NCBI GenBank assembly: GCA_021832345.1
Contig: JAKBKY010000001.1
Span: forward strand, 148,385 to 212,384
Direction of reading: 5' to 3'
Length of the DNA: 64,000 nt
Source: a bacterium
Lineage (GTDB): Bacteria > Vulcanimicrobiota > Vulcanimicrobiia > Vulcanimicrobiales > Vulcanimicrobiaceae
Notes under the pieces: generated by a model
The model's input: only the letters and a program-made list of their open reading frames with translations
What the model was told of the DNA's origin: nothing
The model's database searches: none
Part shown: piece by piece, positions 59,508 to 64,000 of the stretch
Layout of the letters: each line of letters starts with the position of its first letter
How positions within the stretch are numbered: the first letter of the stretch is position 1
Program-made: the position numbers and the translations under genes

Positions 59508-59548
59508 ACCCCGAAGGGGTGATAATCCCAACTTAGTTGGGTTATACT
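59508..59548 (+). promoter_or_regulatory. Hairpin followed by dyad operator and -10 box
   Basis: ACCCC-GAA-GGGGT (59508-59520) is followed by ATAATCCCAAC, TTA, GTTGGGTTAT (59522-59545), a palindrome perfect except for one extra T. The right arm runs into TATACT (59543-59548), a 5/6 match to -10. A repressor on the dyad would cover the whole promoter. The first gene downstream is decayed (next entry), so this is probably an autoregulated antitoxin-type promoter left behind. Confidence 0.45.
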
Positions 59549-59551
59549 GAG

Positions 59552-59944
59552 CCGCGCCGCAGCGCCGCTACGGGAAGTTCCACGTCTGGGTCTACACGAA
59601 GTTCGCGCGATCGAGGACATGACCAAGGCCGATGCTCGTAAGGCCTTGGAGGTCGTGGCCGAGCACAGGCCGGCAAAGCCGCGAAAATGGCCCCTACGAC
59701 CGTTGTGCGGGCCTCGGTCACGATCCCGATCAGCGAGGGGCTGCTCTGGCCCGCGCTCGACGTTGGAATCTCAGCACCGGGACTGCTTGAGGACTTTTTC
59801 GGCTACGTGACGCGTGCAAAAATCGCCCGCGCCGGCGGGAGCCGATCGACGCCGGCGAAGGCCATTGCCGCCCGAGAGAATGGCCGAAAGGGTGGTCGTA
59901 AAAAGCAACGACCACGGCCCGTGGTTACAGAGCGAATGTGGTAG
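59552..59944 (+). pseudogene. Decayed small gene behind the dyad promoter
   Basis: No complete frame leaves the promoter. One frame reads LREVPRLGLHEVRAIEDMTKADARK and ALEVVAEHRPAKPRKWP in pieces; then a different frame from 59687 carries on for 85 codons and ends in AARENGRKGGRKKQ, an ending typical of small antitoxin-like or HTH proteins. This suggests a frameshifted gene. Its stop falls inside the tRNA 3' fragment. Identity unknown. If the 59687 frame is translated alone it lacks a ribosome-binding site. Confidence 0.3.
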
Positions 59945-59966
59945 CGCTAACGGGAATCGAACCCGC
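59939..59966 (-). other. tRNA 3'-end fragment (putative attachment site)
   Basis: On the minus strand: T-stem GCGGG, loop TTCGATT, T-stem CCCGT, then TAGCGCTACCA, that is, T-arm, acceptor 3' strand and encoded CCA. The matching 5' acceptor strand (AGCGCTA) and the D- and anticodon arms are absent from the next 200 nt, so this is not a whole tRNA. Isolated tRNA 3' ends mark the distal end of elements integrated by tyrosine recombinases. Confidence 0.6.
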
Positions 59967-59975
59967 GAATCGGGG

Positions 59976-60062
59976 TCCCGGCCGCTCCCGTCGATTACCG
60001 GAAAGTCCCGTCCTGTAAGGGTTTTCGCGTTCTCAAGTCCCGGCTCGTCCCAGCCAATCCCG
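59976..60062. repeat. Helically phased TCCCG decamer array beside the tRNA fragment
   Basis: TCCCG or a one-base variant begins at 59976, 59986, 59996 (TACCG), 60006, then 60038, 60048 (TCCCA) and 60058: two groups with exact 10-nt spacing, 32 nt apart. A repeated protein-binding site on one helix face is the simplest reading. The spacing is read directly; the binding role is inference. Confidence 0.5.
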
Positions 60063-60078
60063 GCGATTTCCGCGAAAT

Positions 60079-60099
60079 CCGTTAGACGGCCGTTAGACG
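60079..60099. repeat. Tandem 10-bp direct repeat
   Basis: CCGTTAGACG at 60079-60088 and again at 60090-60099, one base apart, 17 nt beyond the phased TCCCG array and between the tRNA fragment and the unknown gene. It may belong to the same recombination or regulatory site. Confidence 0.5.
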
Positions 60100-60184
60100 A
60101 TCGAGCACACCCTTCTGGCCCGGACGACGCTGTCCGGTAAGCGATGTCAGAGAGCTGCTCGATGCTCATGGCGATTGCTCGGTT

Positions 60185-61738
60185 CTATCCTGGCTGGTCA
60201 CTTCCGAAGGCGCCGCGCGACGGCTCCAAGCGAGTCTCGCTTGCAAGAGGACCTGCTGCTGCAACGGATGCCTTCAGTTTCTCATGCTCCAGGTGCACAG
60301 TTTGAACGGGATCCCACCTCGGTCCGATGATGAGTTCCGTGATTGAGTGACATTCCAACTCGTCGACGAGTTCGGTACTCTGAGTCGCTAGTCGTAACGA
60401 GATCTCCGTGTCGTTGAATGCATCACTAGCTTTATCGAGATTCAACTGACGGCGCCTCAAGCTCCCGCTGTACGCCGTCCGGTATCTCCTTAAGGCGTCG
60501 TCGGCTCGTGTAAGCCACCCGATGATTCCCGACCTCCCAGGTGCGCCTACGGTGTCGATAACATCGCTCTTAACAAGCTGAAGCCTCCGCTTCTTTGTGG
60601 TCACCCTTGCGTGTACTCCGAACCTCGGAACAAGGTAATCTATAAGTCCCTCCCAGGATGGTTGGCGGAGGGCGCGTCTCCTCTCTATCACTTTGCCTTG
60701 TTCGATGACGGCTGCAAGCGCTTTTCGCGCTTCAATCGACTCTTTGTTTAGGTGCCCGTCGGCTGTTGCATCTTCTAGCGCCTTCTGGCTCTGCTGGAGT
60801 TTCGAGGCGTGCTGCGCGTGAAGCGTGGAAAGCGTGTCGATCTTTGCGATGATCAATCGCCGAATTTCCGTCGTTGGCTGGTAACGTGCGCGCGCTCCAT
60901 CGGGTGAAAGAATCCAGCGAGCCGGTATTGCTCCAGCAAAGAGTTTTGAGATCAGGTCACGGCGGAGCTTTTCCTCGTCCCTCTCAAGGTCCAAATTGCG
61001 CTCTGGAAGGAGCTCGAGCGCGAAGAAGCCGAGTTTTAGAATATCTGTAAGTCTTTGGTAGGACTCAACTTGACTCGTTATCCCGATCTCTATGAGCAGA
61101 GCATTCCCGATAAGCATCTCTGATGCACTTGCTGGAATCTCGTCGGCGAAGAGATCGTGGCGGCGAGTTCCTCTGAGCACTCTCAGATCTTTTCGGGTGG
61201 TCCGCTCAATACTCGTGCTCGGTCCCAGTCGCGCCCAGAAGATCGCTCCGTTGATTGAACAGCGAAGGTAGTTCAGGTCGAAGATAAGTTCTTGCAGAAT
61301 CCTGTGCGTTGGACTTGTGCCGGGATGGTGCCCGTGTTTTCCCGCGCCCAGACGCCAATACGAGAAATAATGATTATCGGCGATTTCTCGCTTCCTGCCC
61401 GGGAGAACCTTTCGACACATTCGTCGCCCCAGCAGATCGCTGTATTTCTTGTTATCAGGAGCCTGTTTCGCGTTTATCCATTCGTCATTCTCATCGAAGG
61501 CATAATACTTGCGAGCGAGGCACATTCGCAGGCTTGCTGGATTCGACAACAGCGGATCAGCCCCAAGCGACGAGGGTGACCCGACGATACGAACTCGTTC
61601 CGCTGCGGAGCTCGGAGCCGAGCGACCCCCAATGAGAGCCCCCGGGTCTTGATGATCACGATGCAAGAGTGTTACCCGTGCTTCGGCTCTCGTTTCCAAG
61701 GCCGAAGTCTTCGCGCAGCAGTTGGAGAAAGCGCGCAC
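60185..61738 (-). CDS. Unrecognised protein, up to 517 residues
   Basis: No family recognised. The frame opens with a GTG directly after the HTH gene's stop, but the first 70 residues look like translated non-coding sequence. A start nearer residue 72 (ATG at 61525, followed by CLARKYYAFDENDEW) is plausible. The middle is mixed alpha/beta and hydrophobic (LTDILKLGFFALELLPERN); residues of about 300-365 are strongly helical (KIDTLSTLHAQHASKLQQSQKALED) and may form a coiled coil; the C-terminus is charged. No membrane span or signal peptide. Base composition is less GC-rich than the core genes, suggesting recent acquisition. Position behind an excisionase-type HTH gene, where a PIN toxin is normally found, raises a toxin or defence role, unproven. 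Confidence 0.6.
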   Translation of the reverse strand: MRAFSNCCAKTSALETRAEARVTLLHRDHQDPGALIGGRSAPSSAAERVRIVGSPSSLGADPLLSNPASLRMCLARKYYAFDENDEWINAKQAPDNKKYSDLLGRRMCRKVLPGRKREIADNHYFSYWRLGAGKHGHHPGTSPTHRILQELIFDLNYLRCSINGAIFWARLGPSTSIERTTRKDLRVLRGTRRHDLFADEIPASASEMLIGNALLIEIGITSQVESYQRLTDILKLGFFALELLPERNLDLERDEEKLRRDLISKLFAGAIPARWILSPDGARARYQPTTEIRRLIIAKIDTLSTLHAQHASKLQQSQKALEDATADGHLNKESIEARKALAAVIEQGKVIERRRALRQPSWEGLIDYLVPRFGVHARVTTKKRRLQLVKSDVIDTVGAPGRSGIIGWLTRADDALRRYRTAYSGSLRRRQLNLDKASDAFNDTEISLRLATQSTELVDELECHSITELIIGPRWDPVQTVHLEHEKLKASVAAAGPLASETRLEPSRGAFGSDQPG

Positions 61739-62254
61739 TCATTCAAAACTGCTTCGATCAACATCACGCAGTCGTGCGAGGTGCTGCATCGCCTCTTCAT
61801 CCTGATCGTACAAGCCGTATTGTTTGCTCAACTCGATGAGATTGTGAAGATGCTGACGCCGTTCGCGCCGGCGTGCGGCGCCGAAGGTCACTACGTCAGC
61901 GAGCGCAACGCGACGGTGACGGCCGACGCGCTCAAATGGTATCTTGCCCTCGTCTAATAGCCGCACAAGATGGGTTCTTGAAACGTTGAGGAAATCGGCG
62001 GCCTGTTGCGAGGTGAGCATCCGGTCTGCTGGTAGCACACTGACGGCTCCACCGCGCGCGAGCATCTGCGCGGCGATGACGAGCACTTGGCGCAAAGCCG
62101 ACGGAAGCGGAAAGGGCTCGTCGTTCGGGGCCGCGAGGTAGCCCGTAGCGTCGGGATCAGATCGCGCGATGGCCTCGCCGAGGCTCCGAATCAGGGCCCG
62201 TTGACCAGCATTGGGAGCCGCTACAACCTGGCCGGCGTCAGGGATACTGTTCAT
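61739..62254 (-). CDS. Excisionase-family HTH DNA-binding protein (antitoxin-like)
   Basis: 171 residues. The C-terminal half is an HTH_17/MerR-like domain: LTSQQAADFLNVSRTHLVRLLDEG, GKIPFERVGRHRRVALADVV. A short helical tail (RRRERRQHLHNLIELSKQYGLYD) follows, the usual layout of antitoxins that precede PIN-domain toxins. Here the next gene is not a PIN protein. The frame can start at a GTG at 62329; the ATG at 62254 is preferred for its ordinary N-terminus. A CGAATATTCG palindrome at 62293-62302 just upstream may be its operator. Confidence 0.8.
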   Translation of the reverse strand: MNSIPDAGQVVAAPNAGQRALIRSLGEAIARSDPDATGYLAAPNDEPFPLPSALRQVLVIAAQMLARGGAVSVLPADRMLTSQQAADFLNVSRTHLVRLLDEGKIPFERVGRHRRVALADVVTFGAARRRERRQHLHNLIELSKQYGLYDQDEEAMQHLARLRDVDRSSFE

Positions 62255-62292
62255 ATTATTCGCTGCGAACGCCTCCTGAGTGTCGATTATGG

Positions 62293-62302
62293 CGAATATT
62301 CG
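62293..62302. promoter_or_regulatory. Short perfect palindrome upstream of the HTH gene
   Basis: CGAATATTCG, 39 nt upstream of the preferred HTH start and 75 nt upstream of the divergent helical-repeat gene. A 10-bp palindrome can occur by chance; its position in the divergent intergenic region is the only support for an operator. Confidence 0.25.
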
Positions 62303-62376
62303 GTGAGGCTGTTGCTTGCGCCTTTGCACGTGGCAAAAAGGGGCAAGGCGTGTTGCGCGTGGTACTCACGCCCCCG

Positions 62377-63606
62377 ATGCCGCGCTCCAGCACCAAAGCC
62401 ACTGCTCCTCACAAATGGGTTTTCAAAGCCCGCTTCCGGGCGGGCGCGTTCGGCTGGCGCTCGCAGCCCGCGATCGCGCGCATCGCCGAGGCGGCAAGCG
62501 AGATCCACCGCGTCGCGCGCACCGATCCGGTACTCGCAGCCGACGGAGCCGTGGCATTTCTCCAACGATTGGTACCCGCGATCGAGCAGGTTGACAGCTC
62601 GTCCGGCTCCATTGGCTCCGCCGTCAATCGAGCGATCCGCGAGCTGACGGAGTTGATAGCGGCGGCGCCGGCCGCGGCAAGCGTCCGCGACGCGTGGCTG
62701 GAGCGCCTCTGGGACGCGTTCAGCGGAGACGGCTACGGTTATCTCGACGAGCTCGGCGATCTCTGGGGCGGCCTCTGTGCAACCGACGAGCACGCAAATG
62801 CGTGGGCGGACCGGCTCGCGCAATTCGTGCGGGCGGCTTATGCCATCCCATGCGACGGCTTTCGCTACGTCAAAGGCATTGATGCCTGTCTCAGCACGCT
62901 CTTCAGAATCAATCGTTTCGAAGAACTGCGCGCGATACTCGAGCTGACCGGCAAGACCTTTTGGCACTACCACCAGTGGGGATTCAAAGCGCTTGTCGCC
63001 GAGGGGAAGCGCGCCGAAGCGTTACGCTACGCGGAAAGCCATCACGGCATCAACGACGGCTACGCTATCGATCGTGCGTGCGAAGAGCTGCTGCTCGAAT
63101 CGGGACTCGCCGACGAGGCCTACCGCCGCTACGCCTTACGCACGAATCACCAATCCACGTACCTTGCAACGTTCCGTGCAATCGCCAAGAAGTATCCACA
63201 CAAAGATCCGCGCGATATTCTCGCAGATCTCGTCGAGAGCACTCCGGGCGAACGCGGCAAGTGGTTCGCTGCCGCCAAGAGCGCCGGTTTCTATGATGAA
63301 GCGATCGCGCTCGTGCAGGCCGCACCCGCTGACCCCAAGACTCTCGGGCGCGCAGCTCGCGACTTCGCAGAGAAACGTCCGCTGTTCGCGATGGAAGCTG
63401 CGCTCGCCGCGCTGCACTGGGCAGCAAAGGGCTATGGCTACGAGATCACCGGATTAGACATCCGTGAAATCTACCGCAGCGGCCTGACCGCCGCCGTCAA
63501 CGCAGATCGCGGCAACGACTACAACGCCCGCACTCACGCCATTCTTCAAACTTCCGATAAGCCGTTCGCCGACGCAATCACGTTGGCCTTACCGCCGCGC
63601 AGATGA
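62377..63606 (+). CDS. Helical-repeat protein, DUF6880-like
   Basis: 409 residues, almost entirely helical, with paired Ala/Leu/Trp-rich helices like TPR or HEAT repeats. The segment FLQRLVPAIEQVDSSSGSIG, then WLERLWDAFSGDGYGYLDEL and GLCATDEHANAWADRL resemble proteins annotated DUF6880, many of which carry an added SWIM zinc finger; none is seen here. Function unknown, probably a scaffold. ATG at 62377 chosen; the frame opens 27 nt earlier. Its 3' end overlaps the convergent SLOG-like fragment by 18 nt. Confidence 0.65.
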   Translation: MPRSSTKATAPHKWVFKARFRAGAFGWRSQPAIARIAEAASEIHRVARTDPVLAADGAVAFLQRLVPAIEQVDSSSGSIGSAVNRAIRELTELIAAAPAAASVRDAWLERLWDAFSGDGYGYLDELGDLWGGLCATDEHANAWADRLAQFVRAAYAIPCDGFRYVKGIDACLSTLFRINRFEELRAILELTGKTFWHYHQWGFKALVAEGKRAEALRYAESHHGINDGYAIDRACEELLLESGLADEAYRRYALRTNHQSTYLATFRAIAKKYPHKDPRDILADLVESTPGERGKWFAAAKSAGFYDEAIALVQAAPADPKTLGRAARDFAEKRPLFAMEAALAALHWAAKGYGYEITGLDIREIYRSGLTAAVNADRGNDYNARTHAILQTSDKPFADAITLALPPRR

Positions 63607-63780
63607 CACATGTCGAACGATTCCTGGTTCAGCGATGCGATGCGAAAGACAGTTATCTGCCCCGTTGGCGTCGCCGATAACGATCGGGAAACCTCGCTCT
63701 ATCATGTTATCAATCCGTGCGCGTACTTCATCGTTCAAGCGTGAGACGTGCCGTGAACCGCCCAAGAACACTGTCGTCAT
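63589..63780 (-). pseudogene. Truncated SLOG/YspA-like nucleotide-binding protein
   Basis: The first 42 residues (MTTVFLGGSRHVSRLN, IDNMIERGFPIVIGDANGAD) match the N-terminus of a SLOG-type Rossmann family whose members run to about 110-130 residues and continue with KAVQ after GANGAD. Here the frame breaks at that point and stops 21 codons later. A shift to the next frame gives a longer but unfamiliar sequence. The gene is therefore truncated or frameshifted. ATGA overlap with the upstream gene shows it was once the second gene of an operon. Confidence 0.6.
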
Positions 63781-64000
63781 TGATTGCTCCGCGTTCCCTT
63801 CCGCCGACGCTTAGGCGCGTCAGTTTTTGGCGCTAACTCAGCCGTGATCAGATTGACGGATACACGAGATCCGCCATCATAACCAAAGCGCTCAGCGTTC
63901 GCGGCCATCCAATCGCCCCAACGCTGCTTGAATTCCTCTGGCGAAAGAAGCAGGAGCTCTACAAACGGCTTAAAGTCGCGTTCTTCTGCGAGACGGTAGC
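63777..64000 (-). CDS. Partial CDS, unknown protein (5' end beyond the window)
   Basis: The last 73 residues of a minus-strand gene: RLAEERDFKPFVELLLLSPEEF, KQRWGDWMAANAERFGYD, SVNLITAELAPK, ending in a basic tail PKRRRKGTRS. Its TGA overlaps the ATG of the SLOG-like gene by 4 nt. Not recognised; the visible part is helical and soluble. Confidence 0.6.
   Translation of the reverse strand, partial: YRLAEERDFKPFVELLLLSPEEFKQRWGDWMAANAERFGYDGGSRVSVNLITAELAPKTDAPKRRRKGTRSNQ

Follow-up and report, generated by a model that had tools for sequence, protein, structure and literature searches.

A displaced tRNA-Glu 3′ end beside a phased decamer array: probable attR of an integrase-less island at a tRNA-Glu(TTC) hotspot

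The window, a 64,000-nucleotide stretch corresponding to C3:148385–212384 of genome G000, contains an isolated tRNA 3′ fragment flanked by short repeats spaced one helical turn apart, which raises the question of what kind of element ends here and which proteins its repeats serve. The site is probably the attR of an integrase-less, CIME-like island that forms the outer end of a four-module stack on the 3′ end of tRNA-Glu(TTC), with the decamers acting as Xis sites.

The tRNA fragment, its flanking repeats and the tandem locus

The fragment, GCGGGTTCGATTCCCGTTAGCGCTACCA, occupies 59939–59966 on the minus strand and is a displaced tRNA-Glu(TTC) 3′ end comprising T-arm, acceptor strand and CCA, with two mismatches to the intact tRNA at C3:235469–235543; it would constitute the core side of attR. 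The earlier note had recognized a T-arm and acceptor end with CCA here, correctly, and had placed the repeats after it. They do adjoin the fragment, but since it lies on the minus strand they are on its 5′ side, inside the inserted element, rather than beyond the CCA. On the same strand, a core-proximal group of CGGGA/CGGTA-like decamers (59976–60010) is positioned at −42, −52, −62 and −72 from the CCA end, and a distal group of CGGGA/TGGGA units (60038–60062) at −104, −114 and −124; the former are proposed RDF (Xis) operators and the latter proposed RDF operators. Read on the forward strand, these are the seven TCCCG-like pentamers in two groups at 10-nt spacing that the earlier note had listed, each in its place (59976, 59986, 59996 as TACCG, 60006, 60038, 60048 as TCCCA, and 60058), and an additional weak pentamer, TTCCG, lies at 60068. 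Between the groups sits a central segment, AACGCGAAAACCCTTACAGGA (60011–60031, minus strand), a proposed bend or accessory site whose reverse complement recurs in the attL of the cognate type (TCCTGTAAGGGTTTT in G056). Further out, two direct repeats CGTCTAACGG, 11 bp apart (60079–60099, minus strand), form proposed integrase arm-type sites, which complete relatives have at both attL and attR; the two CCGTTAGACG copies already noticed, at 60079 and 60090, are these 11-bp TCTAACGG repeats. On the other side of the fragment, positions 59530–59944 resemble a degraded small-gene remnant, so that the real chromosomal edge may be further left.

The intact tRNA-Glu(TTC) lies 27 kb from the window fragment. 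A tyrosine integrase gene adjoins it at C3:234155–235387, with Phage_integrase and SAM-like domains and a near-cut-off arm-binding match. Five tRNA-Glu 3′ ends, all on the minus strand, occur at C3 positions 208323 (the window fragment), 214161, 225111, 230764 and 235469 (the intact gene), and the locus consists of four tandem modules: M1 (230.8–235.5 kb, with the integrase), M2 (225.1–230.8), M3 (214.2–225.1) and M4 (208.3–214.2), the outer end of which is carried by the window. The pairing of a tRNA 3′ fragment at one end with an intact tRNA at the other holds for this array as a whole, and G064, G066, G001 and G034 carry single islands with a fragment opposite the intact tRNA. The element boundary proposed in the earlier note is thus supported by the intact tRNA-Glu, the tandem 3′ ends and the complete relatives. 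That note had also suggested a search for an intact tRNA with a tyrosine recombinase nearby; both exist 27 kb away, but the integrase belongs to another module and has different arm sites. The eno side of tRNA-Glu is kept in nine of the ten relatives examined and the opposite side is variable, which marks an integration hotspot; none of the window's left-flank genes was found near tRNA-Glu in 10 relatives.

Tyrosine integrase genes are present within M1 and G056B and absent from M2, M3 and M4, and direct queries of M2–M4 with four integrases and two Xis proteins returned no convincing trace. Apparent integrase remnants beside orphan arrays are likely artefacts of stop-to-stop ORFs reading through the array; querying directly with four integrases yielded nothing at those positions. 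M4 lacks both int and xis, stands in tandem, keeps its attR well and has a left end of another arm type. Its own integrase is lost, and M4 is therefore a decayed derivative rather than a complete island.

The window covers M4 from 59939 to 64000; the module runs on to the tRNA 3′ end at C3:214161 (position 65777, past the window end). It encodes a 517-aa ORF with no confident family match, whose true start is probably internal (60185–61738, minus strand), a HTH_17/excisionase-family DNA-binding protein of 196 aa as called (61739–62329, minus strand; relatives in G056B at 85% and M2 at 78%), and a 418-aa DUF6880-like ORF, under the family cut-off, within the stretch homologous to G056 element B (62350–63606, plus strand). 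Specifically, 1.9 kb (61764–63654) is 91.8% identical to G056:C6:84485–86366, the same distal part of element B. The homology to G056 ends at ~63654, a probable junction with the left half of a different element. The arm repeat at the left end of M4 differs (GGGTGCA), so M4 seems to be a hybrid whose integrase half has been lost. The probable hybrid junction holds a 63-aa ORF (63589–63780), the beginning of a truncated gene that G056 carries complete, at 187 aa. M3 matches the tandem neighbour of the G056 island at up to 88.5%.

Excisionase-family HTH_17 proteins of 171–196 aa are encoded both in M2 (L007:2911–3977) and at window 61739–62329 in M4. The M2 gene is paired with a PIN_3 gene, a probable toxin–antitoxin combination, and the M4 gene is followed by the unclassified 517-aa ORF. 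As the RDF of the island the window protein is disfavoured, because the PIN-domain partner of its M2 relative makes it more likely an antitoxin than the island Xis. Other cargo includes, in M2, a 956-aa SF1 helicase with a PLD domain (G000:C3:226029–228899, L007:30–2900) that strongly matches MkoC of Mokosh-type defence (694 bits), and, in M3, the type I restriction-modification genes hsdM, hsdS and hsdR beside an AbiEi-like gene (G000:C3:218506–224131, L006:12507–18132), parts of which are 84–89% identical to the island in tandem with that of G056.

Complete relatives and conservation of the array

A complete counterpart is found in G056, which belongs to another genus. Its 28-kb island (C6:82518–110677) extends between two tRNA 3′ ends, from 110677 to 82518, and its attR is 95% identical to that of the window. 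The integrase gene (109348–110580) is adjoined by a 73-aa HTH_17/excisionase-family gene, and TCTAACGGCCGTCTAACGGA occurs in attL, 58 and 69 bp past the CCA, as well as in attR at −159 and −148. The same plan is seen in G064, G066, G001, G034 and G026, and integrases 81–88% identical to that of G056 adjoin tRNA-Glu with the same arm repeats. Within the family, array DNA gives up to nine matches per genome, and a class-wide DNA search of 117 genomes yielded matches in that one family only. A plasmid search returned no match, a phage search matched tRNA-Glu alone, and IMG/VR contributed a single distant integrase with no arm match. A 20-mer match in L044, a Chloroflexi MAG, is attributable to chance, since the sequence there looks like coding sequence and shows neither a tRNA core nor arm repeats. 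In G019, sequences that diverge ahead of the CCA follow several array-type ends (C1:190691, 242150 and 291424; L052–L054), which are situated apart from the intact tRNA-Glu; these may be secondary-site insertions or decayed ends. A partial array-like match also occurs ~590 kb off at G000:C3:797033–797109 (74% over 77 bp), with no recognised tRNA-Glu 3′ end within the stretch fetched.

Scoring the array against shuffled sequence, as the earlier note had suggested, gives a divided answer. Six TCCCG-like pairs at 10-nt spacing, including the weak 60068 unit, are reached in 0 of 2000 dinucleotide shuffles of 59966–60105, and the lag-10 self-identity of 49, against a shuffle mean of 33.6, is attained in 1 of 2000 over the same interval. 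An agnostic version admitting any pentamer at any period of 8–13 is not significant, since 120 of 500 shuffles attain the observed value. The array by itself is accordingly weak evidence, and conservation is decisive: its register is found again in many genomes, and across relatives decamer positions 1–5 carry 1.64 bits per column versus 0.99 for positions 6–10. A chance origin is ruled out by this conservation across genomes.

Assignment of the repeats to proteins

The two repeat classes are distributed differently. In the complete islands G056B, G064, G066, G001 and G034, and also in G026, attL and attR each carry the 11-bp TCTAACGG (TCTAAC) repeats, identically oriented. Other integrase types, at this tRNA or a related one, have 11-bp repeats of their own, CGGTTGCC at both M1 ends and GTGTCACA at tRNA-Glu(CTC). 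Present in both arms and specific to integrase type, the TCTAACGG repeats behave as integrase arm-type sites. The CGGGA decamers are confined to attR, where they lie between arm sites and core in a single orientation, one helical turn apart and at near-constant distance from the core (about −42, −52, −62, −72, −104, −114 and −124); they are absent from attL and from the rest of the islands scanned.

This arrangement most likely identifies the decamers as operators of a recombination directionality factor (RDF) of the Xis/Cox/Apl kind, as judged from their placement and spacing. RDFs bind head-to-tail on tandem repeats one DNA turn apart; those of lambda Xis lie in attR, and the 186 Apl protein recognizes five direct repeats at 10–11 bp spacing at att (PMC7498355); about one RdfS molecule binds per 10 bp (PMC11963761). 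The attR arm here carries direct repeats at about this spacing, as RDF operator arrays do. The earlier note had named no known att architecture with this exact decamer array; one-turn phased repeats are in fact already documented for RDF operators (PMC7498355). Of the binding proteins that it had offered for the phased sites, an RDF fits the attR-only decamers best. By sequence, the natural candidate for this RDF is a small HTH_17/TIGR01764-like gene that adjoins int at nearly every type-A, A′ and related locus. It scores above the Pfam HTH_17 cut-off, reaches 25 and 21 bits for TIGR01764 excisionase against a cut-off of 28.8, and has as its best PDB sequence match 4j2n Gp37 (E 0.0094), which we take to be Pukovnik Xis. 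Two features count against the RDF reading: the 32-bp spacing of the two decamer groups does not fit a multiple of 10, and the HTH_17 gene matches the excisionase model weakly.

The decamers could instead be integrase sites, whether of the arm type or repeating the core half-site CGGGAATCGA, with the TCTAACGG repeats serving another protein. The decamer form CGGGATTCGA is nearly identical to the T-arm half-site, and the P′1–3 arm-type sites of phage lambda are likewise ~10 bp apart. This assignment is nonetheless unlikely. The decamers are missing from attL, whereas the TCTAACGG repeats occupy both arms; moreover, in tRNA-Glu(CTC) islands the decamers at −42 and −52 become CAGGAC while the core keeps its T-arm sequence and remains CCCG/CGGG-like, and this failure to track the core argues against decamers as core copies. 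Recognition by a host architectural protein common to all islands (IHF-, HU- or Fis-like) would accommodate a register kept across several integrase types, and even type-C ends show faint units at −42 and −104/−105. We consider it quite improbable, as these proteins typically occupy just one or two sites rather than a head-to-tail decamer series, and type-B ends at the same tRNA have no array. A ParB-like partition centromere, or a regulatory array unconnected with recombination, would fit phased repeats insofar as these generally suit cooperative binding, but it is extremely improbable: the array is fixed 42–124 bp from a tRNA core and followed by arm-type repeats, and a search of seven contig stretches from complete islands and G000 for strict arrays of three decamers found them only at the two G000 attR ends. 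Among the main ORFs whose families were scanned, none is a partition protein.

With the decamers taken as RDF operators, we infer the following assignment of proteins to repeats. In a complete island, the integrase would recombine the attP of the element with the tRNA 3′ end, leaving the restored tRNA in attL, beside xis–int, and the displaced tRNA fragment in attR. The integrase N-terminal domain would hold the 11-bp TCTAACGG repeats of both arms, and a winged-helix Xis would polymerise head-to-tail on the attR CGGGA decamers, bend the arm and drive excision.

A less expected feature is an inverted repeat matched within integrase type. A segment of ~24 bp directly past the CCA in attL returns inverted in attR, between the decamer groups. 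Paired scores of 30–46 are obtained for types A, A′, E and F, a level that none of 1000 shuffles attains, and the best partner of an attL is generally the attR of its own type (loci L046, L045, L055–L059, L095, L100–L103, L106–L107 and L113). The E pair joins an attL and an attR that come from separate loci in a single genome, and the F pair joins two sites sharing a contig, which makes these the weaker pairs; types B and C have no such inverted repeat. The attL copy is able to form a hairpin after the restored tRNA, and the repeat may act as a terminator, a bend site or both. A broader proposal is speculative and, in our estimation, has little chance of being correct: that integrase-less modules with retained att arms are moved in trans by the integrases of co-resident islands, that tRNA-Glu arrays perform cassette-like shuffling of defence genes, and that the matched inverted repeats belong to an undescribed attachment-complex geometry.

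Comparison with known systems

The result is a clear breakdown, at sequence level, of attL and attR in a large, uncharacterised group of islands known so far from a single bacterial family. With these repeats, comparison alone suffices to assign integrase, RDF and core sites, so that attR ends can be located by pattern. The locus also shows defence genes (restriction-modification, Mokosh-like and AbiEi) collecting at one tRNA hotspot.

Attachment sites of lambda, P2 and 186, with their Xis, Cox and Apl operators, share with these islands the arm-type integrase repeats at both ends and a small winged-helix gene beside int. As in lambda, tandem direct repeats about one turn apart lie between arm site and core at the int-distal end, so that the int-proximal attL has arm sites only and the distal attR has arm sites plus a phased array. 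Unlike those phage systems, the present sites have other sequences, seven units in two groups and 11-bp arm repeats, belong to an island rather than a phage, and are known from sequence alone. ICEMlSymR7A attP, with IntS and RdfS, similarly combines tyrosine integrase arm-type motifs with a winged-helix RDF that is oligomeric, roughly one subunit occupying each 10 bp; RdfS, however, follows no consensus motif and binds close to attL/intS, whereas clear repeats occur here, in attR (PMC11963761). Decayed elements that stand in tandem with an integrase-bearing element on the end of a tRNA gene follow the CIME/accretion pattern of the ICESt1 type, in which integrase-less elements keep their att ends at the tRNA 3′ end (PMC5704250). 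M4 differs in resembling a hybrid of two elements, and its likeness to CIMEs is judged from its tandem order, its well-kept attR and its loss of int and xis. The stacking of decayed, CIME-like islands in tandem at a tRNA hotspot is thus of a kind already known, and this site is a fresh, well-preserved case of it.
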